64,000 bases of DNA from Cenococcum geophilum 1.58. Its lineage: Eukaryota; Ascomycota; Dothideomycetes; Gloniales; Gloniaceae. Under the pieces are notes generated by a model. The model made no database searches. It saw only the letters and a program-made list of their open reading frames with translations, and was not told the DNA's origin. The position numbers and the translations under genes are program-made. Below are positions 3,131-59,215 of this stretch, one piece after another. Numbering within the stretch: position 1 is the stretch's first letter; every line of letters starts with the position of its first letter. The stretch covers positions 682,001 to 746,000 of the forward strand of contig KV748230.1 in assembly GCA_001692895.1 (NCBI GenBank). The letters run 5' to 3'.

Positions 3131-3499
3131 AAAAAAGGATTGCTAAAGAATAAGTTACCTAAGGGGGACCTAAGAAGAGCAGTTACCGAACTACTTAGAT
3201 TTGTTTTCTTCTCTATTAGGGAAGAATTTGTTTTTTTATTACTAAGTTTCTATAGACCCTATTTTATAAGTTTCTATTTCTTAAAACGGACCTTCTTACG
3301 GCAGCGTGGTTTTCAATAAGCGAAAATCCAGCCAATAAAATATTGGCATTTGTCAATATTTACAGCGTCAATATTGAAATATTGACAATAATTTAGATAA
3401 AATTATTATAATAGAAATATACTTATTAAAAATAAATATTATACGAATTATTAGTATAGATTGACAGCTTTATAATATAATTAAGCTTGTAGGGGTAAG

Positions 3500-4812
3500 C
3501 TGTGTACGGAGCTGTGCACGAAGCTTTGCGCGGAGCTCTACAAAAGCTCTGCACGAAGCTCTGCACGAAGCTCTACTCGAAGCTCTACTTGGAGCTCTAC
3601 TCGAAGCTCTACTCGAAGCTCTGCACGAGCAGGGTGGTTTTAGATAATGCGAATAAGCAAGCATAAAATATCCTTTCTAAAAAATCTCTGCTTTTACAGC
3701 TCTGTGCACCAAAGCTCTGCACAAAGCTCTGCACGAAGCTCTGCACGAAGCTCTGCACGAAGCTCTGCACGAAGCTCTGCACGAAGCTCTGCACGAAGCT
3801 CTGCGCGAAGCTCTGCACGAAGCTCTGCACAAAGCTCTGCACGAAGCTCTGCGGAGGCTCTGCACGAAGCTCTGCGGAGGCTCTGCACGAAGCTCTGCGG
3901 AAGCTCTGCACGAAGCTCTACGGAGGCTCTGCACGAAGCTCTGCGGAGGCTCTGCACGAAGCTTTGCGGAAGCTCTGCACGAAGCCCTGCGGAAGCTCTA
4001 CACGAAGCTCTGCGGAAGCTCTGCACGAAGCTCTGCGTACGGAGGCTCCGCACGAGGCTCTACACGAAGTTCTGCACAAAGCTTTTATATAGAGCCTCCG
4101 TAGTAGAGCCGTCGTACGCAGAACCGTTGTACGCAGAACCGTTGTACGCAGAACCGTTGTACGCAGAACCGTCGTACGCAGAGCCGTCGTGCAGAGCCGT
4201 CGTGCAGAGCCTCCGTACGCAGAGCTTCGTGTAGAGCTTCGTGCAGAGCTTCGTGCAGAGCCTCCGCAGAGCTTCGCATTAAGCCTCCGTACGCAGAGCT
4301 TCGCATAGAGCTTCGTGCAGGGCTTCGCGCAGAGCCTCCGCAGAGCTTCGCGTAGAGCCTCCGTACACAGAGCTTCGTGCAGAGCTTCTACAGAGCTTCG
4401 TGCAGAGCTTCCGCAGAGCTCCGCACAGAGCCTCCGTACGCAGAGCTTCGTGCAGAGCTTCATGCAGCGCCTCCGTACGCAGAGCTTCGCGCAGAGCCTC
4501 CGTAAGGTATTAATAGCGTTAAGAGGTTCTAATTCTAGCTCTAAAGCCATATTTTATTTAATAATAAAGAAGAAAAAGGCAACTAAAAAATTATTTAGGG
4601 TATACTAAGACTTATTGCGATAAGATTTATCCAAAACCACCCTATACACGAGGCTCTACTTAAAGCCCTATTATGGCTCCACTTAAAGCTCTGCTCGAAG
4701 CTCTGCTTAAACTCTATTAAGGCTCTACACGGAGCTCTACTTAAGCTCTACTTAAAAGCTCTACGTAAGGCTCTGCTCGAAGCTCTACACGACACTCCAC
4801 TCTAAGCTCTAC
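3500..4812. repeat. 12-bp minisatellite (GAAGCTCTGCAC family), direct then inverted
   Basis: Tandem variants of GAAGCTCTGCAC, with CTACTC, CTGCGG and TGTGCA versions. Units read in one direction up to about 4090, pass through a GTACGCAGAACCGTT-type transition (about 4098-4190), then run as the reverse complement to about 4510, with degenerate units continuing to about 4812. Because the unit is a multiple of three it opens long spurious reading frames rich in Ala-Arg-Ser on both strands; these are not genes. The array is shared by the outer and inner TIR elements and reappears at 58.5-59.2 kb. Confidence 0.95.
3630..4644. mobile_element. Second TIR element nested in the first, same minisatellite
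   Basis: The left end is CAGGGTGGTTTTAGATAA and the right end is its near-complement (TTATCCAAAACCACCCT, then A). The flanks TGCACGAG (3622-3629) and TACACGAG (4645-4652) are an 8-bp target duplication differing by one G-to-A change. The TIR differs from the outer element (GGGTGG against GCGTGG), so this is a sister family rather than a copy. It landed inside the minisatellite of the outer element and itself carries the same 12-bp repeat, first as GAAGCTCTGCAC units (about 3713-4090), then as complementary units (about 4190-4510). No transposase is visible. Confidence 0.75.
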
Positions 4813-33218: not shown

Positions 33219-33227
33219 CCACGTACG

Positions 33228-33360
33228 TTACCTCAGCGAGCTCAGACGCGATTTTTTAGCTAGCATCGGAATAACCTACGCCGTCTTCCGAATTGCAAAA
33301 TCACGTCTAAGAGGGTTTGGCGAGATTTGTTAAAATCCTAAGCAAAATCCGTAAAACGGA
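33228..33360 (+). repeat. Left terminal inverted repeat of the giant element
   Basis: Matches the complement of 50240-50374 in three blocks: the terminal 20 bases, a GGAATA...CCGTC block (about 33268-33290) and TCTAAGAGGG...GCGAGATTT (about 33306-33332). The first exact GCGGATAT follows at 33365-33372. Confidence 0.75.
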
Positions 33361-33959
33361 GATTGCGGATATCTAATTTATTTATTCACATAACGCGTTA
33401 TTATTAAACCCCATAGTTACTTTTTTTTTAAGACTTAGGNCTTCTAAATGGTATAAATTTTATTATATGGCTACCACTTAGTCCTAATATTAATTTTATT
33501 AAAGTTAAAAAACGCGTTATTAAAAGCCTAAGTACGTATTATATCTTATTAAATAGTTTACTAATATAGATAAAACTATACAGATATATAGATATCTACT
33601 ACTTAAAGCTATTATAACACCTAGTAGGTGCTATAGTTAGGTCCTTCCTTAAAAATATCCTCCCTTAGCCTAAAGTGCCTTTACTACTACTAGACGCTAT
33701 ATCCGTATAGAAAACCACTATAGCTTAAAAGAAAAACACTAGTCGTTAGGGTTAGAAGACTATAGTTAAATAGGAATGCTAGTAGGTCTCGCGGAGCTTA
33801 TAGGAGCTAGATAATCGTATATAGGAAGATCTTACGTCCCTAGTAGAGAGGCAGTTATAGGATGTATAAGATAAGCTTCTGGCCTTATAGGAGGCAAGTA
33901 AGGACGAATAGTTAAGCGTGATAGATAGAGCTATTAAGCTTCTATATCCGTATAGCGGA

Positions 33960-35764
33960 TAACCTAGTTAAATTAAGGTATTAAGATAGGTAATATATAG
34001 GCGGAGGGACTTATTCCTGGCGGCGAAGATATTATAGGGTAAGAGTATAATAATGTAGGTAATTCTATTACTAATTCAAGCTTCTATTACTATTATTATA
34101 TTACCTTTAAACGTAATTAAAGAGGAGTAGCTGTTAAAGATATGGGCTATTCTAGGAGCAAATCCTGTATTTATATATGCGGAGGTAATAAAAGCGTATG
34201 TGGATATCCTAAAACATATTAAGGCGGGTTAGTTTATATATATTTTAGTATTACTAGAGTTACTATTAAGTAAATAGTTCCACTATATCCTTACTTAGCC
34301 TACTTTTTACTTATATATTTCTTTAGTTATAATTAATAAGTGTTATCTAGTTACTAATTGGGGTAAGAGCTTCCGGCCCTATTATGTATAGCTCTTTAAG
34401 GTCTGATTACTGCTTAGTTTAATAGTATTATAGTTTATATATACTATAATACTTAATAAGAAAACATATATAAAGGTAATAAAGCTAGCGGGGTTTTATT
34501 AGAGTATAATGGATCTTAAATAAATAAATATTAATTAGCCTAACCTATTTATTATTAGGGGCTATATTAAGAGGAGGGATAAGAATAATTATAAGGCACT
34601 ATTCTTTATTATTAAAGAGGCATTTAAGGAGGCGGTAGTAGAGGAGGATTATACACCTGTGACCCTTAGCTAGATATCTATAGGGTCTAGTAAAATATCC
34701 GTATTATTTAGCTAAACGCCTATAGCGTCTAGTAGGATATTTGTATCTTCTAGTTAAATATCCGCTACCTCTATTTATTAACCAGTTGGGCGGATCTAAA
34801 ATCTAGTAGGAGGTACTATATAGCCAAAGGGATAAAAGGTTCTAAGTCCCGAATTAATTTCTAAGATAATTATCTTTCTTTATACTAAAAATTATATCCG
34901 TAGGTATATAAATATAATCCATTCATAGCTTATAACTAAGGGCTATACTATAAAGCAGGTTAAAATAGCAGTATGGAGTTATTATATGATATTATCTAAA
35001 TATAATAAGAGTAGGGAGTATTAAAATTTCTGCACAAAAGACTTACCTACCCGCATTCTTATTACGTCGGACGCCCTAGCCTATAGTGCGGATATTCCAG
35101 ATATTATCCGTTCTATTATATACAGTTATTATCCTAATAAAAGCCTAAATATAATATTACAGCGATTTAGACGGGCTGCCTAACGCGATAGTATTACTAA
35201 ATATATAATTATCCTTATTAAAGACTAGTATAAGGGCGCTTTTATAGATATTATACCGCTAAAGCAAAAGTCTTAAAAACCTATAGCCCCTCTATCTACC
35301 CAACTTGGCTATAACTTTATTACTGTTAAGATGGCGATATAGGAGGATAGGGTAGCGGATTTCGCCAGCGATTTGGCTTTATTTATTATAATTAACAGTA
35401 ATATTATCTCGTAGGTATTTACCTAGGAGAAAGAGGATTAAATACTTAATAAGAATATAATATTATTAGCCCTGCCAATTAAGTATATAGAAAAATAGAA
35501 GAGGGTAAAGACTAATATAGAGAAATGGGCGGTACTTCTAGATATATTATACGAGCTTGCGAATAAAGCTACTAGATATTTATATAATATTCTACTTAAG
35601 CCATATAAGGAGATAAGTCCGTTATCTAGAGGTCTACGCTATTACTCTAATTATGATAATTTGTTATAGGCTTATAAGGAGTATAATATTATCGCACTAT
35701 ATACTAGGAATATTACGAAAAGTAAGTATTTAAAGGATCTATTTATAAGTGTTAAGAAGTAGAT
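33960..35764 (+). pseudogene. RecQ-like superfamily 2 helicase relic inside the giant element
   Basis: Ignoring stops, one plus-strand frame shows SF2 helicase motifs in order. SIIMQVIPLLIQ resembles the segment after motif I (about 34030-34090), followed by IIILPLNVI (motif Ia). Motif II reads VIINKCYLV at about 34326-34352, which is VIDECHLV with G-to-A and C-to-T changes. Then come a C-terminal RILITSDALAYSADIPDI (motifs IV-V, about 35050-35103) and LQRFRRAA (motif VI, QRxGR-like, about 35155-35180). It is truncated by the copia insertion at 35769; the 3' part may continue at 41862-42230. A helicase inside a DNA transposon suggests a cargo or a mobility function; both are inference. Confidence 0.7.
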
Positions 35765-35769
35765 TAAAG

Positions 35770-35942
35770 TGTTAGGAATGAGGCAAGCGGTCGTTACGTA
35801 TTATCACGTATCGCCACGGCACTAGCGTAGTGAGGAACCTTAGGTTCCTTACCTACCCCCTAATTCTAAATAATAAGCTTTATAACTAACATTCACTATG
35901 TCTATTTAAGTAGCATTAGTGAGTTACCCTGTGACACTAATA
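35770..35942 (+). repeat. 5' LTR of the copia element
   Basis: Starts TGTTAGGAAT and ends CACTAATA. The ends are inverted copies of a likely original TGTTGG...CCAACA, of which the final CA has become TA. It contains the palindrome AACCTAAGGTTCC-like segment near 35838-35852. Confidence 0.9.
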
Positions 35943-38900
35943 CTGATTAGTGGTTGAATATACAGTTAACCATAGAATAGTAAGGTTTTTAATAAAAGAG
36001 ATAGTCTCGTGTAGGGGTGCCATATACGCTTATATGGAATGGATCCCGGCGATACTGTGCTACCTTAGACTTGCGGAAAACTAGTAATAGAAGTGTTACT
36101 GAGTACTAGGAGATACTAAGTTGCGTTTATTACGCAGAACAACCACGTTTACGAAGATTTGGTCAAGTACTTTAGGTTAGAAATATTACTAAACCTAAGG
36201 TCCTAAGTTAACGTCCGAAACGCGTTAAAAATAATACTCTTAATACTTTGCCACGTTCCTAGCGGCCCTGCCACGTTGAAATTACGTTAATAACGCGCTC
36301 TCTGGCCCTTATACTCCTCTATTAGTATTTAAGGCAGTACTAGCGCGCCCTTACCTTATGACAATTTCAGCTTTGCTAGACTATTAAAGTTCTACTAGTA
36401 CGCTATCCCTATATTTTTAATACTCTCTATACGTCGAATAACTGTTATTATGGCGTTGACCTATCTAAAGAAGTATGAGAAAGATATTAACCTGGAGATA
36501 TGGGATAGACCTATAACCGACTTTATAACTACTAAGTAAAAGGAGCTAAATGGATTCTTATTATACTGTATGGTATACTATAAAGACAGCGAATACGATG
36601 ACACTATGCTATGGTATTATATAAAGGAGGACTTTGTTAGATGGATAAAGGAAACATAGGTTCCTATATATAAGGATCTTATATAGGACTTCTATAACTT
36701 TCTTTGGGAGTATAGAGTATTTGTCCCTATAGATAGGGGAGGTATTAGAGATAATATTTAGGAGTATGTTATTAAAGTAAAAGAAGAATATAAATGGACT
36801 CTATAAGAGATTAAGCACCAACTACGCACTATAAAGAAGCTTAACTTACGATGGAATTTAAGTAATACGCTACTAGAGACGTGCTCTAGTTCCATTACTC
36901 TAAAACCCCCTACTTTACAACTTAATAACCTTTAAACTCTCCTATAGTAAGATTAAGTACTATACTCTATTCTATTAAGCTCTACGTCCCCACTGCAGCC
37001 TATAATATAATCCCTACCTCCTTAATCTCTAATACAATCTTAACCTAACCTAGCGCCACTCGGAGGTATCTTAAAGTTGCTTACGGATCTTACGAAGCTC
37101 TATTTGGACTAGGAAAAGAAGTTTAGTAGGGAGCTGTATAATATCCTTAATTTAAAGCTACGTATCTTCTATAACTGTTACTAGAAGGTAGGACTAGAAC
37201 CTAACTAATATTATAACGCCTATTCCATTATACTTAAAGGCCGCGCTAGTACCTTTTACTATAATCGTTTGGTAGGAAAAGGGTACGATTTTAACCGTAT
37301 AATATATAAGTTAAGATGCTACTTTGAAATAGAAGAGAATAAGCAATAGTATATGTTGGAATGGAGAGAGACTACCTTCTTAAGGATTATTGCTATAAAC
37401 CTAGGTGTTTCTCGGCTTAATTGTCTTTAAAAGCTCTTTAATTAACTTTAGACGATTTAGTGTAGTTTATCCGAATTATATTAAGAGGACTTCAGCCTAC
37501 GCGATTAAGTTATTAGCGTATGCTGAGGTGTTAAAGAATGCAACCTTGCTCTCTTTAATCCTGCAAATACTTACGAAGGAGTATGTACTTAATTAAGATC
37601 CTCTATTAGCACCGCTCTACGTTCTTAAGAAATGTAGCAATTTAACGCCTAACCCTAACCTACTTTAATTAACCTAGACGATTAACACGACTATAACTGG
37701 ACTAATTAAACATATCGTGGTAGGGGATACGGTAAAGGGTATAATTAACGTCGACTATAAAGTAATCGTGGAGGTCCTTATGGAGGTTCATTTTGCAACA
37801 ATTGGCAGAAGAAATGCTACGTTTATGAGAAGCTAAATTGCTAGTTAACTAGATACCCCCTTAATAGACGAAAGGAGGCATATAATAAGTTTCGCCAGAG
37901 CGTATAAAACGTTAGAAACTAAGAAGTTACTACAGCCTACTTCTAAAGCTTCCTGGTTTAATATAAAGGCGAAGAAGATCTTAAGGGTAAGATTAACGAG
38001 GCTAAACAGCTCCTTATAGATATGGAAATTGAGGACTACTCTCCCGACTAATACTTTACTGAGTATGGTAAGGTAAATAGCGCACAAACCGTTGCTGTCC
38101 TTAATGACCAATCTACGCTCTATTCTGTTACAAGATACTCGGCGAACGTCTTCTATAGTATTATGCCAGATACTAGAGCCGCAGGAGTATCTATAGTAGG
38201 AGAACCTTAAGTATAAGCTCTTTAGCAGCTTAATAGCTCTGTTTAGATTAATTAATTAACGGCAGGCCAATATACAATTCGCTTTAGTAAGGGTACTATA
38301 ATCTCTTTTAGCATAATTAAGGTCCAAACCCCGTTAGGATATATCATTTTCTATATTATTCCCATGAACACCCCGTTTTTATTCTACATCTAAGATATAG
38401 ATAAATTAGGCGTTAAGCTCGATAACCTTAAGAATATACTTATTTAGGGAGATAATCGGGTGCCCGTTATACGCAAGTAGGGTCACCCTTAGTTGCTCCT
38501 TTAACAGCCAGAAAGGAGTATTGCTTAAAGCCACTTAACTAAGTTAGAGCTACGTTAACTACACCGTTGTTTTAGCCACCTATCTGTTTACTAACTACTT
38601 AGGGTTCTTTAGCGAGCAGGTTATAAAGTTGAGGTTAAGATAATTAAGCATCTTACAAAGTACTGCTATTACTACTAAATAAACCAGAAGTCCCCTAGCC
38701 GATTTAAGTTCACCCTTAAAGATAACTACAACTTTAACTTCTATATTATTATTGATATTATATATCTTAGCGGCAAACCAGTACTCTAAGTTATTAACTT
38801 CTTAACATCCTTCTAAGCCGCACGCTTCCTAAAGGATATATCAGCTAGGAACGCATAGGATACTCTCTAATTATACTGGATTAATATCTACCTAGAACCC

Positions 38901-41683
38901 CCTAATCGAATTATTTACGACATAAAAAGGAACTTCTTATCTGTAGAGTTTCGGTAATAGGTAAAGGCAATAGAAATTAAGGTTAAGGAAGTCCCTATTA
39001 AGGCATATAATAGCGTTAAAAAAGTAGAATAATACCACACACTATTACGCCGAGCATATGAGATTATTTCTTTAGAACTAGAGGACGCTAGCGAAGAGCT
39101 TATCTTATAGATGGCTGTTAAGGCTATTAACGATTCCGCTAGTCCAGATAGGCTCGTACCCACGTTATTAGTCTTTAGCGCCTACCCTTAAATAACTAAC
39201 AATTCTCTATTATCTCCCTCTATTATATAATAAGCTAAGGCTATCCGCAAAGCAACGAAGGAGGTATGACGTCTCTACGCTACGCGCTAGGTTAACGACG
39301 TACTAGAAATAAGAAATGGCCTAAACACCTTAACTATGCTTAATCTGCCGCTCCAATCTAAGGTACGCGTATAGCGTAAAAAGGGAGGATAGTTAGGCCC
39401 ATATAAATTTATTGCAATTAATAGTTAAACCTATACTCTCTAGATGCCCTATAGACCTACTTAATTCCGCTTAACCGTTATTAAGCCCTACTATAAGAAT
39501 AACAGCTCCGAGCCTTTATAGGATGCCCTAGAGGATACCCCAAAGGAGAACCACGATTAACGTACTCTAGAAGGCGACAACGATTCTAATATAATTATAG
39601 TAGACGTGCCGCAACCATAACGCGGTAGAGGTCGCCCGAAGGGATTACGGAATCGCCAATATCTTATAAATTTTAAAGAGTAATTTATTACCGCTATTAA
39701 GAGTAGAGACAAGTTATTAATGGCTTTTATAACAGCTAAAGAGAAGGATAACTTTAAGCTCGCAAAACAGCTCTAAAAAGAAGGCCGTATTATAACTCTA
39801 GGAGCTTCTTTTTAAGCATCTAATAAATAGGAGATCGACGGTCTTATTATAAGAGGAGTCTTTAAATTTAAGAAATATAACCCTATTAAGTTTAATGGAG
39901 TTCGCATCTTTAAGTTAAGAATGGTTAATAAGATTAAGGGTAAAGCTACTAACGCCCTATTTAAGAAATTAAGGCTTATTATCTAAGGTTATAACGATAA
40001 TAGTAAGGAGGTAATCCTTACGTAATCTTTTATAATTTAACGAGCTAGTTAGCAAGTTATTATTACGCTAGCTCCCTCCTTAATAAAGAGTGGAATAGTA
40101 GTTTATTTATAAGATATTACTTAAGCCTACACCTAATTAGAGACGCACCTTTAGCGCTTAATATTGGCATATCTTCTAGAGCAAATTTGCTACTAATATC
40201 CTAAAGATACAATTATGGTTGTCCTTAAGCTATTATACGGAATCATAGAGGCAGGAACCTATTAGTGGGCTACTTACAGCAAGCACTATAAAGAGAAGCT
40301 TTTAATAACTACTTCTATATTTAATCCCTACTTCCTTATTACAGCCACGGGAACTCTATTTGGAATTGTTGGCATATAAACAGACAATATAATTATCTTA
40401 GGAGACGACCAATTCTTAGCTCTTAAAGAAGATATGCTAGTAAAGGTAAACCTTATAGCAAAGCTAAAGGAAAGACTTGATTTAATAATACTATTACTCT
40501 TTAATAGATGCATTATTTCCCTAAATAAGGATTCTATTGCCCTACGCCAGAAAGGTTAAGGTAAGAAGATTAATATTATTAACGTTAATTCTCTAAAGTA
40601 AGGATATGTGGAGTAACGCGCTTATAGAGCTTATATGGCTTTTATCTATTAACCCAAAGCTTCCTTTAATCTCTCTATTACCGCCTAACACCAGGAACTA
40701 ACTAAGGATAATATTTTTAACCTAAATAAGCGTCTTTCCTGGTAAATAAACCATCTCGATTAGGGACTACTCTACGTGCCTATTAATCTTCCTACCGCTA
40801 AGCTATTTGTATTTGTTAATAGATCGTTCGCAAATAATAAAGATTTTAGCTCCTAGCTAGAATATAAGATTATTATAGCAAACGAATCTACTAGAGAGAA
40901 TAACTTTATAATCTACGGTAATCTTATTTATTAGAGCTTAACTAAGAGCAAATGTGTTACTTAAAGCGTTCTAGCGTTAGAGATATATAGAATAGTTAGT
41001 GGAGTTAATATGGCAATTGCAATTAGAACTACCCTTAAGATAATTATAGATTAACTTAAACTTCCTATTATCCCTATAATTGTGTACACTAACTTATATT
41101 CCCTCTATAAGTGTTTAGTTAAGCTTAGTACTATAAAGGAGAAGCGCCTTATAATTAATATTATGGCACTTTGGCAGTCCTATAAGTATTAAGAACTCTT
41201 TAAGATCCGATAGATTAATGGCTAAGATAACCTAGTAGATATAATGACAAAGGCAAACCCAAATAAGGCACTAGAGACGTTCGTTAATATAAATACTCTA
41301 TATATGCGAGTTAAAGGTTGGGTTAAGAGGGAAATTTAGAGAAGTTAAGATCTTATAAAACTTTAACCACCGGTTAAAGTTGTCTAATTAGTTAGATTCT
41401 TGCTAAGAGCGCCGCGCCTAATTAATTTAGGTGGCGGTGTAGAGTTCTACTAACGCTATTTATTAAGCTGGCTAATTAGGATTTTCTATCCCTAGGATAG
41501 AAAATTGCCATTAGCTTGGCTAAGAGTGGTAAGCGGAACTAACATCTTTATATAAACCCGTATATCTACCTACGCTACCTCTTTCCCTTTATTTCTTCTT
41601 CTTCTTTTCCTTAGCTTTATATCTTTATATAGTAGCAATCTATAAGTGTATATAGATGGCAACTATAAAAGAAGAGTTGCTAG

Positions 41684-41856
41684 TGTCGGGAATAAGGCAA
41701 GCGGTTGTCACGTATCGTCACGTATTGCCGCGGCACTAGCGTAGTAAGGAACCTTAGGTTCCTTACCCACCCCCTAATTCTAAACAATAAGCTTTATAAC
41801 TAACATTTACTATATCTACTTAAGTAGCATTGGTGAGTTACCCTATGACACCAATA
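41684..41856 (+). repeat. 3' LTR of the copia element
   Basis: Same length as the 5' LTR with scattered transition differences. Starts TGTCGGGAAT and ends CACCAATA, followed directly by the TAAAG target duplication. Confidence 0.9.
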
Positions 41857-41861
41857 TAAAG

Positions 41862-42439
41862 GATAGCTTAATATAATATACTAGGATATAGTTTAAAGTC
41901 TAATTTCTAGTTATATTATATCTAATAATTAAATCCGTATACTTTATATCTAACCTTTACTAACTTATAAGGGCCTTAAGTGAATATTACCTAAATGGGA
42001 TTACAGCTTTTTAGGAGATAAAGTAAACACACTTATCCGCTTTATTTATAAGGAAGAAACGTAATACTTTAGTACTAGTATCTTATAGGCTGCGTTATAA
42101 TCTAGTAGATATATTGCCGTATCTAAAAGCTCATTATAAACGCCTCTGCCATTAGTGGGTTAAAGGGGACCCGTTAGTATATTAACTATAAAGAGTACTA
42201 GTCTTAATTAACCGTTATAAACCAAAGTATTACTACCCTTATAGCTATTATTAGCATCTAGCTTATAAATGGATATTACTAAGTCTTAAATATCTTAGCT
42301 TATATTAACCTAAGACTTATAGGCGAACTAGTCCCAAACTATATATACCGCTTTATTATAGTCATCTTAATAGCTATATATTTAGCCCTTAGAGCAATCC
42401 AGATATTAAAGCCTATAATATAGTATTAAATCTAAATCC
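41862..42439 (+). other. RIPed sequence right of the copia insertion
   Basis: Continues the giant element after the copia target site. Short readable runs such as DKVNTLIRFIYKEE (about 42017-42058) suggest leftover coding sequence, possibly the helicase C-terminus, but no domain can be named. Confidence 0.35.
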
Positions 42440-42905
42440 TTAGGGTAGTCTAAGTATTAGAGCTTATAGTATAACACTAAGTCTTAACTTTTAGATAAGC
42501 CTAAGGTTTAATATTTGTAATACAGCACTAGATCTCTAATTATAAAAAATCCTAAGGTTTAAGATCTGTAGCGTAGCACCAGTTTTTAGGTAGTAGGAAA
42601 TCTAAAAATTTAGAATTTGTAACGTAGTATTAGATCTCCGCTCCTAAAAAATCCTAAGGCTTAGGATTTAAGTTATAATACTAAATCTCCGCTCCTAGGA
42701 AACTCTAAGGCCTAGGGTTTATAGGCTAATACTTAATCTCCACCCTCTAAACTGGGCGCAGTTTAGAATTCGCGTACTAATACTTAATCCCCGCCTTCTA
42801 AATTAGGTGCAGCTTAGAGTTTATAGCCTAATATTTAATCTCCGCTCTTTAAGCTACGCGTAGCTTAGAACCTATAGCCTAGTACTTAATCTCCGCCCTT
42901 GGTTT
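42440..42905. repeat. Degenerate tandem repeat, unit about 60 bp
   Basis: Seven or so imperfect units built on AATACTAAATCTCCGCTCCT and CTAAGGCCTAGGGTTTATAG segments. In the last four copies the unit ends in CCGCCCTCTAAA-like sequence with a GCGCAGTTTAGA stretch. Unit lengths vary. Confidence 0.6.
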
Positions 42906-43160
42906 TAGATATAACGCAGCTATTAGGTCCACCTCGCAGCAAAAGAAAACAAAAGGATGTGTTTGCGCACTTTAAAAGTGAGAAATCCGCTTACTAAGTA
43001 AACTTAATATCCGCTTATAACCCTTCTCTAGCACCTTAGCTAAGCAGTAATTTTATATTAATATTACTTTATAAGTTAACTAGACGGCGCCTACTTAGTT
43101 TAATTAGTAGCAACTTAATAGTAAAGGATTTGCGTATTACAAATAAGTGTATATAAGGTG

Positions 43161-46100
43161 GTTAATATTTACTAAGGTAAGTTATAGCGGTAATTATTTA
43201 TTAGCGAGCTAATTTAATAAAATTGGCAGTGTGGATATTCACCTTTAATTAACCTCCGTACCTCTTCTTCTACTAACCTTCTATCTTATAGCACCGCACC
43301 GTAAACTTTACCGTTATTGTTTTATCTACTATCTATTAGCATACCACTATCTATAGTGCCTTTATTTATACTTCTAAATACGTCTAATAGCTATTTAGTT
43401 AAGGAACTTAATATACGCAATATTAATAATAAAATAATTAAGGACGCTTTTAAAGACGCTCTTTCTTTTACTAATCCTTTAGGGTCTCTACCTAAAGGGT
43501 AAGCTTTTTAATACTAAATTATGCCTATAGCTAATATAATTTTAGGAAATATATACTAAAGCACTCTTTATTAGATATAGCAGAGCACCATAATAATGCT
43601 ATTACAAAATCCGCTAGAAATCCGCTTACTTCTTTACTGCCTGCCTTTTTACTACCTACCTCTTTACCGCGTACCTTTAAGCCACTTATTTCTCCGCCTA
43701 CTACCTCTAAAAAGTTTAATTATTATTATACTTCTACTTCTCTTAAGAGGCAGGCTAATAGAATTACTGCGCAAAATATTAAGTATAAGATAGCCTTTAA
43801 ATCGTAAGTGTTAGCTATACTATTTTAGTGTCTTATCTATTAATTTACCTCTTATAGTAACCTAATAGAAATGTTAGAGATTTTAAATAACAATAAAAGG
43901 AGTAATCTTAATAACGCCGACTCTCTTAAAAGCTCTCCTCTATCCTTTTATAATTTCTGTAGCCCTTATAAGCTCTATATAACCTAAGCTATAACGTTAA
44001 ATATTAACATAAATGAGCGCCTTTCTATTTAAGTGCTGTTAGTAAATAAATAGTACACCCTAAAAGCTGGTGCTTAGGAAAATATAAAAGAAGCTTATTA
44101 GCGGATATATACCCACGTCTAGAATATTAAGGGTAACTCTAGTATGCTATGCAATCCGCTATACGCTTTATGCGTTAAGTAAGACTATAAATGTCGCGTT
44201 TATAAGCAGAACTCTAGGCCTTATTTTAGAGGTGTATACTTAAGATATCGCTTAAGTAGTAGGTCGTGCGAAAAGGTACGTACTAATAGTATACTACTAT
44301 CCTATTAGCTAACACGTATATAGGATAGTTTGCTGATATTAGAGCTAGTTATACCTTAGTATAAAAAATATACACAATTAGCTTCTACTAGTAGTCTAGC
44401 TAAAACGCCTACTAAAAAGGTATAATATCCGCATTTTAACAATATAGATATTGCTAATATCCGCATAGCTTTATACCCGCACTATCCCCCCTTTAGAGAC
44501 CTCCCCTCCCCCTAAAACTCCTACTTATAGCGATATATATAGCTATAAAGGCACCCGCTTTATCGCTATTCCTTCTACTCTTTTACTAATTCCTAGTATA
44601 CCTAGTGCTACTTCTAGTACTATTACTCCTACTAGTATAGAAAATATTAGGGTGTATTTAGCAATTACTATTTCCGTACGCGTTAATATAATTTATAAAC
44701 GGGTAACTAAGGTAGTAAAAGATGTTCGGGCTATAGACCACCGGTTAAGTAAGCTTAAAGGTTCTCTAAGTGAGATAAAGGATAAGCTTGCGTTTATAAG
44801 GCGTGGTATTACTACACTTATATATAACGCTGGGTCACCAAATATAGAACTTAAGTAGATATAGGTTAGCTGTTGCTACGGGTTAACTGTTATTATAGGT
44901 TTAGAGTAATAAAATAGTAACTCTTACTTTTTTACTGCTATGTATATAGGAATTAAGTCTCTACCTTATATTTAATAGATATCCTTAATTAATATTATAA
45001 TATCTATATAAGCTGAGATAACGATATCCACATAAGCTAAGATAAAGATATTTATATCCGCGCACCGTTAATGTTTACTAAGGTAAGTTACTATAGCAGC
45101 AATTATTTATTAGTGAGCTAATTTAATAAAATCAGTAGCGTAGATATTTACCTTAATTAACCTCCGTACTTCTTCTTCCTCTACTAACCTTCTACCTTAT
45201 AGCACCGCACCGCAAACTTTATTATTATTGTTTTATATACTATCCCTTAGAATACTATAATCTATAATGCCTTCATTTACACCTCTAAACGATATTAATA
45301 TAAATAATAGCAACTAGGCGGTTAAGGAACTTAATATACGCGGCGTTAATAATAAGGAGTTCAATACTGTTAAGCACGCTATAGCTGCTTTTACTAAGCC
45401 TTTAGGCTCTATTCCTAAAGAGTAAGCTTTCTAATACTAAATTGTGCCTATAGCTAATATGATTTTAGGAAATATATACTAAGGCGCTCTTTATAGGATT
45501 TAGTAGATAATGACAATAAGGATAGAGTAAAATCCGCTAAAAACCTGCTTACCTTTTTACTAGATACCTTTCCGCTACCTACATCTTTACTATAGGCTAC
45601 TTTACTATCCACTACTTTACTATCCGCCTCTCCACTACCGCCGCCTAATACTTCTAAAAAGAGGCTTAACAAGGCTTATTTGTCTTCTTTTCTTAGAAAG
45701 TGGGCTAAAAAGGCTACTAATACGAATATAAAGCTTAAGATAGCTATTAAATTGTATATGTTAGTTATACTGTTTTAGTATCTTATCTACTAATTTACCT
45801 CTTATAGTGACCCAAACACTATATATAAGGTTTCTTTAGATAGCAAATCTTTAGACAGCGATAAAGATAAAGACCTTAATAACGCTGACTCTTGTAATCT
45901 CCGCAGCCCTTATAATCTCCGCAGCCCTTAAAATCTCAGCAGCCCTTATAATCTCCGTAGTACTCCTAATATAAATAAGCGCCTTCCTATCTAAGTACTG
46001 TTAGTAAATAAATAGTATACTCCAAAAGCTGGTGTTTGGGATAATATAAAGGAAAGTCGCTAGCGGATATTAACACACGTCTAGAATATTAAGGGTAGCT

Positions 46101-47040
46101 TTAGTGAGCTGCGTAATCTGCTATATGCTCTATATGAGAAATATAGCTACAAATATCGCGTTTATAAGAAGGGCTCTAGGCCACATTTTAGGGGCGCGTA
46201 CTTAAGATATTATATAGGTAATAGGCCGTGCGGAAAGGTACGTGCTAATAGTATACTATTATTCTATTAGCTAATACGCGTATAGGAAAGTTTACTAAAT
46301 CCGGAGCTAGTTATACCTTAGGGCAGAAAACATGCGCAATTAGCTTCTACTAGTAGTCCGGCTGGAATACCTACTAAGAAGGTATACTATCCGCATCTTA
46401 ATAATACGGATATTACTAATATCCGCATAGCTTTATTCTCGCACCATCCCCGCCCGCGCTACTACGCCTCCCCCTACTAAGACCTCCCCTCCTATTAAGA
46501 CTCCCACTTACAGCAGTACGCACGGCCGTAGGGGCACCTGCTCTATTACCGCTCCTCTAACCCTTTTAGCAATTACTAGCACGCCGGGTGCTGCTATTGC
46601 TGCTACTACTTCCGCTAGCGCTAGGTCTATTAGGGTATATTTAGCAATCGCTATTTCTACGCGCGTTAATATAGTTCGTGAATAGGTAACTAATATAGCG
46701 AAAGATATTTAAGCTATAGATCGCCGGTTTAATAAGTTTAAAGATTCTCTAAGTAAGATAAAGGATAAGCTTACGTTCCTAAGGCGTGGTATTATTATAC
46801 TTATACGCAATACTGGGCTACTGGATATTAAATATGGGTAGATATAAGTTAGCTATTACTGCGGGTTAGCCGTTATTACCAGTTTACGATAATAAAATAG
46901 TAGCTTATACCTTTTTACTACTATATTTATAGGAATTAAGTCTCTACCTTACATTTAATAGATATACTTAATTAATATTATAATATCCGCATAAGCTAAG
47001 ATAACAATATCCGTATAAGCTAAGATAAAGATATTTATAT
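43161..47040 (+). repeat. Tandem duplication of a 1.9-kb unit (two copies), product unknown
   Basis: 43161-45066 and 45067-47040 are direct copies, offset by 1906 bp, that have diverged mostly by transitions and small indels. Each copy carries a degenerate plus-strand frame: a start region with VKELNIRNINNKIIKDAFKDAL, a middle with YTPKAGAWENIKEAY-like sequence, a Pro/Ser/Thr-rich linker, and a coiled-coil-like end (44652-44858; LSKLKGSLSEIKDKLAFIRRGI). I do not recognise the protein. The copies share internal ATATCCGC words. Duplication preceded most of the mutation, because the stops differ between copies. Confidence 0.75.
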
Positions 47041-47099
47041 ATCTATACTACAAAACAGCCTACTGCTATATTATATACTACGCACTAAGAAGATTATAT

Positions 47100-50000
47100 G
47101 CCAGCTAGAGTTAATATTAATAAAAAGAACTCGATTAATATATTAAGATAGAAACGTACCATAAGCCCAAGTATTTAAAAGTCCTCTAGTATATTATCTA
47201 TAGCCTTATCAAATCCGTCCTTATAAGGGTTATATAGTAAACCGCTAATATAAGACATCCGCATATTAAAATTAGTAATGCCGCCCTATAAGAGCCGCTT
47301 TAATCTAAGTTAAAGAATAGTAGGTACCTTAAACCTAACGTCCTATATACACTAACGCATAATAGAAGTATATCCGTAATTAAAACAATAAATTACTATT
47401 ACTCTTAGCATTTATTAAGCAATTTATATACTAACTATTATACACATTAGCAGAGGTATAGGTGTAATATTAGAATAACAAACTATGTAAATATATTTAG
47501 CAGCTTCTCCTAGTACCTCTATATTCTTATTAATATTACTAAAGCTGTATATAAGGGGATTAAATGGCAAACTGGCTACAGTTAATAGGAAGGCGTTAAA
47601 TATATTTACGCCGTCCTTTATAAGTTTCTTATATCCACGCTATAGAATTAAAGGAGCCTTAAAATCCGCTAAGCGCCGCCTATATTACACGATTAAATCC
47701 TTCCTAATCTAATCTGCAAGATAGCGGATATCCAGCGCTAGAGACTTAGTCGTATATTTGCTATTTATATATTTACTAAATATACGCTTAAAAATATCGC
47801 GGAGCGTGCTAGTGTAACTTATTATAAGAACACTCTATTTAAATAGCTCGTCTATACTAAACGTTGAATTCCCACGCGTCTAGAGCAACTCCTTAAGTTA
47901 AAGATTTAGCAGTTTATTAAGGCGATCCGTCTTAAAAAAGCTATCTAGCCGCCCTTAAAGGTTAACTAAACTATTAGTAAGGATAGCCCGTTAAAGCACT
48001 AGATTACAAGCGCTTATTCTAACTAGTCGCTATAGAATTAGTATATTATATATATAGTTCTTTAATAAGCTTCCAGCGAAGTATAAGCAAAGGCAGGAGA
48101 TTATATGCCTTAGTAGTCCGATATCCGCATACTTAATAGCGTATTTTAAAAGCTTATAAGTATTAATAACCTATAGGAACCGGATATAATTAAAGAACTC
48201 TATATTATAGTTATTAGCGATGGAGCTTAATATACCTATAGAGGACGACGTCGCTGCTAGCTAACGTACGTTAGTAGGTAGCTCTAAATAATCAGACGTG
48301 CGCTAATTTACATCGCGGCATACATCTCTTAAAAAAGCCGCTATGCGGATATCCTTAATATGCTCTAGAAATTGCTGCGGAGATAGGTTTTATATATATC
48401 GCTCGGCCTCACTATCTGCCTTAATATTATACTTGTTATAGATATAGAGCAGGAATAACGCAACAATATAAGCGTTAAAGCTTTAGAGGATTAGCTCTTC
48501 CATATAATAAAATAAGGCCTTTTCCCTAGGAATATTACGCCGACCTAGGTAATTTATATAGGTATAGAGCGCTAAAAACTGCTACGCGGCTTACTTACCC
48601 CTATAAAACGTACGCATAACCATATATAGGAAGTTTAATCACATATGCTATAGCCCTAGAATAGGCAACACCTACTTATAGCTATTATACGCACCTTCCG
48701 CCTTAACCCGCTCCTCTTTATATAATTAGATAAGCTTTATAGTCTTCTAATCTCTATATACTAGGAATAGCTAGTTATTAAAAGCGGTTTCGCGATTATA
48801 CTACAGTTAGTCTAGAAAGATATTCTCTATTATATAATAATTGCCGTTAATAAAAGCCTCGCTGTCTAGAATAGGTCCTAGAGTTATATACTCTGTCCTT
48901 CCATAAGGGAGAACATTAACTGCTAGTATACGCGGATATTTAATATCCGCGTTAGAGTTAAATATACCATTAACCGCAGTAGGATACGCGTATTAGATAG
49001 CGTCCGTAATAAAACTTATAAATATCCGCTTCTAGAGGTTATTAAACTTATTCCTAGCTATATTAATAACCTTATCTAGCTTAAGTTAACGGGTATTATT
49101 TAACATTAACTGCTTAAGGCCCCCTTTAGGCATATATACTCCGCGTAAGATCTTTTCTATAGTGTGTAAATTAAACTCGCTAATCTCGCCAATAACCTAA
49201 TATTAAGTCTTTTAGCAATAGTTAAAGTTATTATAGATAATATAGATATTATTATAAATAGACAGAGACTTAATTAGTTTCTTAAAGGTTATTAGCGCTA
49301 GAAGTACTAGTAGAATTAATAGGACCTTTCTTAAAACATTTAGCTAGCCTAAGCTTTTTAGCGTTAAGAGTTATATAACTATTAATTAGACTAAGGCTAT
49401 ATAGAAAAGATAGCACATAGTGCTTTATACTAAGCGCCTAAAGATATAGACTAAGTAGACGGGCAAAACCATTTATAAAGTTCCGGGCGAACCCTAGGAG
49501 AAATATAAAAGCAACTATAACTATATATCCGCCATATAGATCTTAACTATATTCCTCTCTATTTAGTGCGGATATCCCCTTAATAAGCTGGAACAGTAGC
49601 GGACCGTACTGCTAAATAAACTTAGCTACATTCTTAAGGTTAATATCCTAAAACTCTATATCTGGAGTCTATATATTAAAGGGGCCGCGTTATAATTATA
49701 GTTAGTAAAGCTCTTTCCGGATATAGCGGATAGTACAGGTTACCAGCGTTGTATAAATATTAGCCCTATTAACAAGTTCTTCTTATATTTCCCTATCCTC
49801 TAGTAAAGTAATAAGCAGGTCCCCTACTTTCTTCTTCTTCCTATTACCTCTATACCCGTTCTCGCTTTCTAAGAACTTAAAAACTAGCCTATAAAAAGAC
49901 CAGCCCTATTAATATAAAAGGTCCCTAACAATATTAACCTTCTTTTTCTTTAATATCTTTATCTAACTAGTAGGTGGAATATCCACTAGTTACGGAGAGG

Positions 50001-50100
50001 GCTGGCGGCGTAGGCGTTTAGCGTTAGTGTTTACTACGTGGCTCGGTAGTATAGAGGTGGAATTAGAGCCTCTGCGGTAATAAATTCCTCTTAACGTCGC
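47100..50100 (-). pseudogene. Degenerate large protein resembling fungal DUF6589
   Basis: Minus-strand reading with many stops but long coherent runs: RILAVNVLPYGRTEYITLGP (around 48960-48890), DSEAFINGNYYIIENIFLD, VLPILGL (about 48670), FNAYIVALFLLYIYNKYNI (about 48480-48430), SPQQFLEHIKDIRIAAFLRD (about 48390-48330), FFNYIRFL (about 48200) and FAGS (about 48080). The central FGDQKT-like and PILGLWH-like features recall the DUF6589 family of fungal repeat-associated proteins. That assignment is from memory and needs a profile search. It lies next to the right TIR, transcribed inward, the usual place for a transposase gene, so it is the best transposase candidate. Confidence 0.45.
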
Positions 50101-50239
50101 GCGTATATAAGGAGCTAAAGATCTCATAGCTTTATAGAGTAGGCTTTTCTCTATAATTTAGCGTAATTTTTATATCAATAGGTATTATAGGAGGGTAGAT
50201 CAATTTCGTCAAAGTTAATAAGGTCTTCTCATATAAACG

Positions 50240-50374
50240 GTGTTTAGGTTTTCCTATAAATCTCGCTAAAGTCCCTCAGACTAAGAAAACGATTACCGTC
50301 CTAAATTAGCTTAGCGGACGGTGCGGATATTCCAATATCCGCAATCGATTTCTTGGTCTGAGCTTCTGAGGTAA
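50240..50374 (-). repeat. Right terminal inverted repeat of the giant element, with hairpin
   Basis: Complementary to the left end as described there. It also contains its own inverted repeat: CTCAGACTAAGAAAACGATT (about 50276-50295) pairs with AATCGATTTCTTGGTCTGAG (about 50343-50362), and a smaller palindrome GCGGATATTCCAATATCCGC (50323-50342) lies between. Two ATATCCGC words in opposite orientation form that palindrome. Confidence 0.8.
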
Positions 50375-50739
50375 CCACGTACGTTTAAATATCGTACTTA
50401 CACTCGTTTCAAAAAGATCGGTAAAAATTGCCAAGCCGCAGCAGCGCGCATCATCCCTATCCTGAGGCGCAACGCCAAGCCGGCCCGCGCATGAACACCG
50501 GTATTAGATATATAGTTCTTATTACAAAGGTTTGAATAAGGGCCTCCTATTAGCTAATCCTTATCGATATCGTTGCGCCGGGTTAAGAGATAGCCCCACT
50601 AATATCGCTCTATATTTTATAAATAGAGGTATATTTTATAGCTCTATTCTAGAGCTATAAAATGGGCCTTTATATGTAAATTGGACCAATATTGGTGGAA
50701 TTATATAGGGTGCTTGCAACGGCTGGAAAACTTAAACTA

Positions 50740-51164
50740 ACGTGTTTGACCACTCCCCGGGCCGCACCACTCCCTAGGCCACCCCAAAAACACACCAAAA
50801 ATGGGGAAAAACGCACTTTGGTATCTTAACAACGGTTTAATAATAAATTACGAATTTTTATAATTAGCTTTTTATATATATTTTAAAACTCCTATTAAAT
50901 TTTAAAAGTAATCTATTAAGTAATTTTAAAGATATAGTAATTTAGCTTAAAATTGGGGGCTAAAACCCGATATCTTAATAACGGCTAGACTTATTACTTT
51001 AAAAATTTATTAAGAGTCTTAAAGTAGGCACAAAAGGCTAATTATAAATTTTGAAATTTATTATTAAACCGTTGTCGAGATACCAAAGTGCGTTTTTTCC
51101 TATTTTTGGTGTGTTTTTGGGGTGGCCTAGGGAGTGGTGCGGCCCGGGGAGTGGTTAAACACGT
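50740..51164. mobile_element. Tc1/mariner-type MITE with about 110-bp TIRs
   Basis: A 425-bp element beginning ACGTGTTTGACCACTCCCCG and ending in its complement. The two arms match for about 110 bases, including CCACCCCAAAAACACACC and ACGCACTTTGGTATCT. TA flanks both ends (50738-50739 and 51165-51166), as expected for Tc1/mariner/Fot1-type insertion. There is no coding capacity. Arms are GC-rich at the tips and far less mutated than the surrounding DNA. Confidence 0.88.
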
Positions 51165-51260
51165 TAAGGCTCTATGCTAACTAATCTAACCCTAAAAACA
51201 AACACCCCTATAACTCTACTAAAATAGCTCTAAATTATATAAATAAGGGCTTGTTTTATG

Positions 51261-56091: not shown

Positions 56092-57844
56092 AACCAAATA
56101 CGTCGTCAAACCCCATAGTGAACTCGTTAATATCGAGGATGACGATCCTCGGAGCTGACCCCTTGATTAAGACTAGTATGTGGCTATGCACGCCAAAATA
56201 GCGTCAATATTTAGGCTTCAATCTCGTGCAAACCGTCCCTATTATTAACCTCAATTTGACGTACGTGGAAATTCTAATTACTATATACACTATCGCGGAT
56301 ATTAGAGCCCTTTTATATAAGATCTTTTCCGGAATAAGGCAATTAATTCAGAATCAAGCCGATCAAAGCAATACACGACTCATTCTGGAACAAGGACGAC
56401 TCGTTCCGGAATGAGGCAGAAATGTATCGGAATATCGTGTACCACCTCCTTTCTTTTGTATTGCAACCTCGGAACACACGAACCATCGCCTCTCGCCACC
56501 ACCTCCTATCACCGTACTTTCAGCCAACAATTCATTTCTGTCGATTGGTAGTCCGTGCACCGATTGTAAGAAAAATGAGGACTCGTGTAAAGATTGATCT
56601 ATGAAGAAAAAGAGGCTATATATACATGAGGTGGGGGGTACAGGCAACAGAGACAGGTACTAGGCAACTGAGACATTCTGTCTCAGCTCGACAATTTCAC
56701 CTTCCATCAGGATGAGCTACTCAACTTCAATGTCTAATGAACGAGCATTCTATCCTAGCACTCAACTTTACACCCAGAAGAAACTTGCCTCGGAACAGGT
56801 CCAAGCCTTACCAATGCACCAATACTGCTAGCTCTGTTATCGAAAGTTATCTCGAGCCATCAGGCACACGTCACGCACGAAGTTTCGCTGCTTTTGTGCA
56901 AATATTGTAGATGATTACAGCTACTTACCCCATTTTCCTGCCTGCATAGTCATTTTCATTTCCATGTGTTTAACAATGCGTGAGAAGTCGCGGCTGAGTC
57001 TCGGTGAAAGCACACTTGCCGTTTTGAACGACGTCAAGTATTGGTGCATAACCTTGAATCGTTAGGGAAGAACATGGAGAAGTGGCGTTGCTTTGGTTTT
57101 AACTTTCGCACCGCGGCCGAATTCACCTCGATGACAGACAAGTTCACCTATGGCGCGAGCAACTATACATGGAACTTAAAAGACCACATCCGCATACTAT
57201 CTTGAGGGTGCCGCGATAGCCTTTCAAGAATTGGTTTTTAGTAGACGGAGAACAACACTGCAAACAAATGCTAGCGAAGCATAAAGACTAGAGACATTGG
57301 CACATGAAGATATTCACTCACTGCATGTCCGTGGCGATTTGCTGGAAGGAATATTCGAAAAAGGTTGACAGAATACGACCCCCCTCGCTCTGGACATGTG
57401 GAAAGGCTGCAATGAGCTCATATGAGAGTGGTTTTTAGTAATAATTCCTGAAACGTGGCCTCTAATGAATTCCACACACCGTTCTGCCTTTCCGGCGGCT
57501 TTAGTGACGTTCAGACCATAGTCAAGAGCTGCACTTAAGGGTTTACCTAACACGTACAACTAAGACAGACTTGGGAGGATATGCTTCTAGTTAGCTTAAT
57601 AATGGGGATGGGAATACTTCGAGCAACTACTCCTATGCGGGTTGGTATTTTGTTATTTACAGTTAGTCCACTTTAAGTCTAAAATCTACGAGAATTATCG
57701 TGGGCGCACTTACTCCATTGCAGAAGGTTCAATTGAATGGTATAGCTATGCTGGTACTCTCGAACATGAATGCATTAGTTGCAGATTTTCTCCAGTAATA
57801 CTAGCATTGGGTGATGGAGAGTCAGGCACAGACAGACAAATAAG
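56092..57844. other. Unmutated stretch without recognisable gene
   Basis: Composition returns to normal. Several open frames of 60-95 codons occur on both strands (for example 56363-56647 minus, 57314-57559 minus, 57642-57890 plus), but none has a domain. A cluster of TTCCGGAA-like words with AAGGC tails lies at 56327-56415. It may be a relic of former gene space between transposons. Confidence 0.5.
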
Positions 57845-58539: not shown

Positions 58540-59215
58540 TACCTGCATAAACGCCTGCACGAAAGCCTGCACGAAGCCTGCACGAAGCCTGCACGACGTC
58601 TGCACGAACGCCTGCACGAATACAAACTCTATATAAAGCTCCGGTCGAAGCTCTGGTCGAAGCTCTGGTCGAAGCTCTGGTCGAAGCTCTGGTCGAAGCT
58701 CTGGTCGAAGCTCTGGTCGAAGCTCTGGTCGAAGCTCTGGTCGAAGCTCTGGCCGCGAAGCCTCTGCTTGAGGCTCTGGTCGAGCTCTTGGTCAAGGCTC
58801 CGCTCGAAGCTCTGGTCGAAGCCGTGGTCGGAAGCTCTGGCGAAGCTCTGCTTGAGGCTCTGGTCGAGGCTCTGGTCAAGGCTCTGGTCAAGGCTCTGGT
58901 CGAGGCTCCGCTCGAAGCTCTGTCGAAGCCGTGGTCGAAGCTCTGGTTGAAGCTCTGGTTGGAGGCTCTGGTTGAGGCTCTGGTTTGAAGCTCTGCTCGA
59001 AGCTCTGCACGAAGCTCTGCACGAAGCTCTGCTCGAAGCTCTGCATGAAGCTCTGCACGAAGCTCTGCTCGGAGCTCTGCACGAAGCTCTGCTCGAAGCT
59101 CTGCTCGAAGCTCTGCTCGAAGCTCTGCTCGAAGCTCTGCTCAAAGCTCTATACGAGGCCTCTGCTCAAAGCTCCTGCACAAGGCGGCTCTGCTCGAAGC
59201 TCTACTAACACACAG
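58540..59215. repeat. Second 12-bp minisatellite array (GAAGCTCTGGTC / GAAGCTCTGCTC)
   Basis: Begins with GCCTGCACGAA units, passes into GAAGCTCTGGTC units (about 58645-58990) and then GAAGCTCTGCTC/CAC units to about 59200. All run in one direction, unlike the first array. It ends in CTCTACTAACACACAGCACT, matching the 3' edge of the first array (about 4803-4824). Long reading frames through it are artefacts of the multiple-of-three unit. Confidence 0.95.

Follow-up and report, generated by a model that had tools for sequence, protein, structure and literature searches.

The window analysed here, a 64,000-nucleotide stretch of the Cenococcum geophilum 1.58 genome (contig KV748230.1, positions 682,001 to 746,000), contains at 33228-50374 a DNA transposon with terminal inverted repeats (TIRs), a RecQ-like helicase gene and, reading inward from its right end, a gene for a DUF6589 protein. 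It is probably a dead, mutation-riddled copy of an AcademH-type transposon with DUF6589 as its transposase, the likening to AcademH being made by published description. A putative three-gene variant of the AcademH type is the best reading. The window element represents family A; two diverged families in the same genome are designated B and C.

The element is bounded by exact 9-bp target-site duplications (TSDs), CCACGTACG, whose only two plus-strand occurrences in the window are at 33219 and 50375; a single complementary occurrence, at 56260, lies outside the element. When a nested long terminal repeat (LTR) element (35770-41856) is subtracted, 11,053 bp (11.05 kb) are left. Two uninterrupted genomic copies, C96 (11,055 bp, approximately 91% identical) and C4 (11,091 bp, 86-88% identical), align end to end with the window copy, and the LTR element, with its 5-bp duplication TAAAG, is the sole interruption of the window copy relative to both. 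A preliminary description of the window had proposed one insertion, bounded by the 9-bp duplication and about 11 kb long without the LTR element; the positions of CCACGTACG and the colinearity with C96 and C4 bear this out. The LTR insertion postdates the transposon copy. GC content is 33% in the window copy, 36% in C96 and 42.5% in C4, and indices of repeat-induced point mutation (RIP) shift in step; family A copies carry RIP-like mutation to differing degrees.

Genome searches covered 177.2 Mb in 162 contigs. With up to three mismatches, a 23-bp left-end pattern, which fits family B ends too, matches 481 times and a 29-bp right-end pattern 222 times; neither pattern has a match when reversed. 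End pairing was counted among 100 listed left ends of the 481 and 100 listed right ends of the 222. Of these left ends, 38 have a right-end partner no farther than 30 kb away and in the orientation of an element, other orientations giving three pairs; one of the 38 (29 kb span) probably bridges two elements. The window element belongs to a transposon family, as shown by two 11-kb copies without interruption, the 481 left-end and 222 right-end matches, and 9-bp duplications at 17 further copies. Second copies were thus both searched for and found; their two ends co-occur, and the helicase and DUF6589 genes lie within the same element. The full-length copy C96:79700-91150 (L017, L018) and a short derivative (L021, at C12) have the same 9-bp duplication and similar flanks; they therefore either lie at one and the same point within a repeat or go back to a single insertion that was duplicated.

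The inverted ends, previously given as imperfect and about 130 bp long, are similar beyond chance over the first 30 bp, where the arms reach a similarity score of 15 (none of 2000 shuffles reaches 15; the largest is 12). Over the first 25 bp, 21 of 27 alignment columns are identical. The length did not hold: 130-bp arms agree in just 88 of 156 columns, so the inverted repeat proper is approximately 20 bp. Eighteen family A places were fetched (two full-length, 16 short). One short place, L035, consists of two left ends head to head with no element; the remaining 17 copies had been picked for having both ends in the best-match lists. Their 9-bp duplications are perfect in 12 cases, match at 8/9 positions in three and at 7/9 in two. 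The family B element at C75 has TTACCTCAGCAAGCTCAGAC at each end and a perfect duplication, CAAGAAACA. Family C ends are TTGTCTCAGCATGCTCAGAC and TTGACTCAGCATGCTCAGAC, and among nine degraded C copies the duplication is perfect in five, 8/9 in three and 7/9 in one. All three families therefore have 9-bp duplications, of varied sequence, and their termini begin 5'-TTACC, 5'-TTGTC or 5'-TTGAC, giving the form 5'-TT...AA-3'. The similarity of A and B left ends lies above all 2000 shuffles; the score of A against C ends is reached by one shuffle in 2000. Two C copies, L068/L069 (C28) and L080/L081 (C50), have a near-identical duplication, GTCTCTTT followed by A or G, which again points to a shared target repeat.

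The inward gene at the right end had been noted as DUF6589-like, and the Pfam model confirms this. A piece of the best-preserved A copy matches DUF6589 (Pfam PF20231) with an E-value of 1.4e-36, and the window gene itself scores above the cut-off (E 9.1e-36) despite 22 stops (C55:729778-731025, equal to window 47778-49025). With the Pfam model at least 102 DUF6589 places are found in the genome, every one above the cut-off, and protein search gives at least 127 matches. Eight of the 102 places are stop-free, so families B and C can be read as they stand. The B element at C75 is 10,887 bp long (GC 47% over locus L057); the C element, reckoned from matching positions of C88 and C43, is 6,443 bp (GC 48%). 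DUF6589 identity to the A piece is 58% for B and 49-50% for C, and B and C are 52% identical to each other. In C, a DUF6589 frame of 957 amino acids and a helicase frame of 883 occupy approximately 5.5 of 6.4 kb. P0009 is a stop-free relative of the family A protein, 84% identical to the C4 copy, and a 600-amino-acid DUF6589 protein identical to that of C is found in 39 public contigs.

DUF6589 is the best transposase candidate, as the preliminary description had suggested; with the helicase, it is the gene common to all three families, and it is the putative catalytic protein. In an 11-row alignment the fully conserved acidic residues include, in P0001 numbering, D369, D384, D432, E492, D529, E613, E614, D708, E710, D735, D801, E805, E847, E852 and D866; eight of the 11 rows reach D369 and D384. 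The favoured candidates for catalytic residues are D369 (in the hydrophobic strand VVYDNF), D529 (in YGDQKT) and E614 or E805. A profile search with the DUF6589 alignment returned solely a protein identical to the first alignment row, and a scan of viral contigs gave 15 stretches by pattern, among which no relative was confirmed. In the literature searched, which did not include the primary AcademH description, the name DUF6589 was not found, the four papers with the string 'PF20231' are unrelated by title, and DUF6589 is not in print as the transposase of such elements.

The plus-strand gene is a RecQ-like helicase gene of superfamily 2 (SF2), in agreement with the earlier call. Stop-free relatives match Pfam DEAD and Helicase_C above the cut-off; a RecQ zinc-binding match is below threshold. 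Motifs include DEVH and QRxGRxxR. At E ≤ 1e-5 there are 37 matching PDB sequences: 34 carry RecQ-family names (RecQ, WRN, BLM, Q1, Q4, Q5) and three are labelled just ATP-dependent DNA helicase. The DUF6589 and helicase genes are convergent, on opposite strands, in A, B and C. A genome search with a C-type helicase gave 59 matches (58 of 412 first-look candidates were scored); because of the query, family A helicases are under-represented. These were compared with 142 DUF6589 places (127 from the protein search and 15 added by hand from the Pfam list). A convergent DUF6589 place lies within 3 kb of 38 of the 59 matches and within 12 kb of 42; by chance, approximately 0.4 of 59 would have any DUF6589 place within 3 kb. 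For two of the 59 the nearest DUF6589 is in another orientation; one of these is the B element, with its own partner approximately 6 kb off. The helicase had been described as either cargo or mobility factor. Optional cargo does not stand: the helicase is paired and convergent with DUF6589 in all three families, and is thus a core part of the element.

Eight copies of the C helicase are stop-free and match at 100% (rounded), and each is within 4.6 kb of a contig end (C9, C41, C42, C43, C70, C74, C88, C149); in all but C41, C43 and C88 this end is the one at base 1. This suggests a recent burst that broke the assembly. A subtelomeric origin of these contig-end copies was considered and rejected: there is no TTAGGG array in the loci examined, and the more economical explanation is that the assembly probably broke at copies that are recent and identical. 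Stop-free families coexist with RIP-degraded ones in one genome.

Between the two convergent genes lies a tandemly doubled unit. The doubling, reported previously, is real: each unit of the window copy matches the other unit of the C96 and C4 copies at 72-75%, and ungapped pieces within the window agree at 73-90%. Each half has a frame of approximately 160 amino acids with two CxxCx5C-like clusters; a Zn_clus match is below threshold (E 0.015). A genome search with this frame listed 150 matches (150 of 201 candidates were scored). Of these, 110 have a DUF6589 place no more than 10 kb away, in every case in the convergent arrangement seen in the window, and the other 40 have none that close (chance would put 2.4 near one); 112 of the 150 are in tandem pairs 1.5-2.5 kb apart. 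None of the accessory matches listed falls in the contig-end C copies. Both copies are present in family B; the duplication is thus older than the separation of A and B and has been retained. The doubled unit is taken to be a duplicated accessory gene belonging to the long lineage, Zn-cluster-like in sequence and perhaps DNA-binding.

Fifteen short elements keep the first 440-470 bp or so of the 11-kb element (391 bp in one) and approximately the last 370-380 bp. Their middles all fall in one cross-matching group; a tandem repeat finder, applied to that of L031 alone, showed a 12-bp minisatellite, AGAGCTTCGTGC. The cross-matching middles and the L031 minisatellite rule out a plain internal deletion as the source of the 15 short copies. 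The window also contains 12-bp minisatellite arrays at 3497-4505 and 58542-59202 (AAGCTCTGCACG and similar), of the same repeat kind as the L031 middle, with no family A ends nearby.

Two relatives of the window copy, family A at C4 and family B at C75, have informative insertion sites, in each case within the right end of a family C element. When the C4 copy is removed with one 9-mer, its flanks align without gaps to an uninterrupted C end at C43, with two mismatches, one inside the 9-mer; removal of the C75 copy likewise gives a gap-free alignment to that same C end, with three mismatches, none inside the 9-mer. Uninterrupted targets were thus obtained for these two copies. None was obtained for the window copy: within this assembly nothing matches its joined flanks across the junction. 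Matches came from the two halves and from several repeats, of which one, at C40, covers the left flank only.

A related terminal motif was looked for beside 32 insertions (18 A, 1 B and 13 C; four of the C with one flank only). It lies within 60 bp in 6 of the 32, and in all six within 25 bp (A: C4, at C4:3986509-3997599, L022, L025 and L027; B: C75:754919-765805; C: C43b, L073). In L022 and L025 the first base of the neighbouring element is the last base of the 9-mer. As a control, the window outside the element has the motif in 2 of 770 overlapping 120-bp pieces, both at one site, and more distant flank has none in 8,371 bp. A Fisher test on the counts, with overlapping pieces treated as independent, gives p = 6.6e-8. 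The preference for ends as targets is a lead, since the motif was defined after some cases had been seen and the sample is 32 insertions. It is unlikely, on present evidence, that DUF6589 is the catalytic protein of a distinct, RecQ-dependent kind of transposon which prefers the termini of its own relatives, so that elements stack end on end.

Features of the window copy are listed in Table 1. Just outside it, at 50738-51166, is a large imperfect inverted repeat with arms of 121 nt (93% complementary) and inner arms of 90 nt (73%).

Table 1. Features of the family A element in the window (window coordinates)
Feature	Position	Strand	Basis
Left 9-bp target-site duplication, CCACGTACG	33219..33227	+	
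Left terminal inverted repeat core, TTACCTCAGCGAGCTCAGAC	33228..33247	+	Includes 481 genome end matches
RecQ-like SF2 helicase gene, first part, RIP-like degraded, split by LTR insertion	33807..35756	+	tblastn P0016 (34.8%), P0002; Pfam and PDB sequence matches of stop-free relatives
TAAAG, left duplication of nested LTR element	35765..35769	+	
Nested LTR retrotransposon, LTRs approximately 173 bp, 90% alike	35770..41856	.	
TAAAG, right duplication of nested LTR element	41857..41861	+	
Helicase gene, C-terminal low-complexity part	42386..43162	+	tblastn P0005 residues 639-897, 64%
Doubled unit, first copy; Zn-cluster-like accessory frame 43844-44320	43161..45057	+	
Doubled unit, second copy; accessory frame 45794-46282	45067..47040	+	
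DUF6589 gene, inward from right end, degraded, candidate transposase	47136..49887	-	tblastn P0009 (69.7%, 47427-49133), P0001 (49321-49887), P0003 (47136-47366); Pfam PF20231
Right terminal inverted repeat core, inward reading TTACCTCAGAAGCTCAGAC	50356..50374	-	Includes 222 genome end matches
Right 9-bp target-site duplication, CCACGTACG	50375..50383	+	

In the proposed mechanism, the DUF6589 protein would bind the TIRs, excise the element and join it to the target with a 9-bp stagger. Cutting would depend on acidic residues of an RNase-H-like core, for which P0001 D369, D529 and E614 or E805 are candidates. The RecQ-like helicase may open or process DNA at the ends, or may help to repair the gap at the donor site or the 9-nt gaps at the target. 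The short derivatives (1.3-2.5 kb), which have the ends only, would be moved in trans. The long lineage would have gained the Zn-cluster-like accessory gene, which presumably doubled before A and B parted; the window copy would later have been struck by the younger LTR element and by RIP-like mutation.

MULEs commonly produce 9-bp duplications, and the element could be a MULE or KDZ element of the usual kind whose transposase went unrecognised, with DUF6589 and the helicase as passengers. This is very improbable: hmmscan gives no such transposase at E ≤ 1 in five frames from B and C, of which two are DUF6589, two are helicase pieces and one is accessory, the two C frames already take up most of that element, and all three families retain DUF6589 and the helicase. 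KolobokH, a Kolobok lineage of fungi, does encode a RecQ helicase and is known from fungi alone, and one rhodophyte Kolobok has its RecQ on the opposite strand, according to the Kolobok passages of PMC9587614. The same passages give TTAA duplications and 5'-RR...YY-3' termini for Kolobok; varied 9-bp duplications and 5'-TT...AA-3' termini are observed here. Since both duplication and termini contradict it, KolobokH is excluded as far as such features allow, and its probability is close to nil. It is also conceivable that DUF6589 elements form a superfamily of their own, with a transposase unrelated to that of Academ, an independently gained helicase and a convergent 9-bp duplication. For the stop-free B and C DUF6589 frames, hmmscan at E ≤ 1 returns DUF6589 only and no known transposase family, no PDB relative of DUF6589 is found by sequence at E ≤ 1, and the name is missing from the literature searched, as noted above; all three results would suit such a superfamily. 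The missing link may, however, mean merely that Academ transposases have no Pfam name. In the passages on Academ in PMC10045372, AcademH has duplications of 9 or 10 bp and AcademX of 3 or 4, a difference tied to helicase versus nuclease. A helicase combined with 9-10-bp duplications is thus already published for AcademH, and for this reason a new superfamily is not the first choice and is rather unlikely; the earlier suggestion of a possibly new element holds at the level of the family.

Several points weigh against the AcademH-type reading with DUF6589 as transposase. The AcademH likeness comes from two described traits, the helicase and the TSD length. Fungal AcademH is described as low-copy in the passages of PMC10799480 that deal with it, yet hundreds of ends are present here. 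For 15 of the 59 helicases, the matches listed include no DUF6589 place closer than 12 kb, perhaps in some cases because the copy is truncated or its partner lies outside those matches. The uninterrupted targets are not alleles but further copies of the repeat that was hit, and the one for the A copy has a single base change in the 9-mer. Two AlphaFold models of DUF6589 (9-row alignments A2 and A4) are of low confidence, with a mean predicted local distance difference test score (pLDDT) of 57.0 and 59.7 and with the D369 and D529 stretches below 50; Foldseek gives no PDB match to the first model at E ≤ 0.001, and VIA-align of the second gives no credible fold match (best Z 3.1, an acyl-CoA oxidase).

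DUF6589, a Pfam family of unknown function, gains a role as the candidate transposase of helicase-encoding fungal transposons. Such elements reach high copy in this genome, unlike the low-copy description cited above. The end-nested insertions suggest a target rule that is countable and testable. The retention of a RecQ-like helicase in A, B and C raises the question of why a cut-and-paste element needs a helicase of its own.

Helitrons are likewise DNA transposons with a helicase, which in their case is of Pif1 type and fused to a Rep nuclease. They differ in being without TIRs and TSDs, as described in part of PMC4522978; TIRs and 9-bp TSDs are present here. The fungal telomere-linked RecQ helicase genes treated in PMC4522978 resemble the present genes in being RecQ-like, low in GC and present in several copies. 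In contrast, the genes found here are inside TIR elements with TSDs, and no TTAGGG array of three or more repeats is found in the loci examined. KolobokH shares a RecQ helicase within a fungal DNA transposon (Kolobok passages of PMC9587614) and differs in its TTAA duplications and 5'-RR termini, as opposed to variable 9-bp duplications and 5'-TT termini. AcademH is described in Basidiomycota, Ascomycota and Mucoromycota, with DEAD and Helicase_C domains (AcademH passages of PMC10799480). The hundreds of ends and the duplicated Zn-cluster-like accessory gene of the 11-kb families are unmentioned in the AcademH passages of PMC10045372 and PMC10799480. The likeness to AcademH, on the same passages, lies in an SF2 helicase gene beside the transposase candidate, a TSD of 9 bp here and of 9 or 10 bp there, and a host in the Ascomycota.

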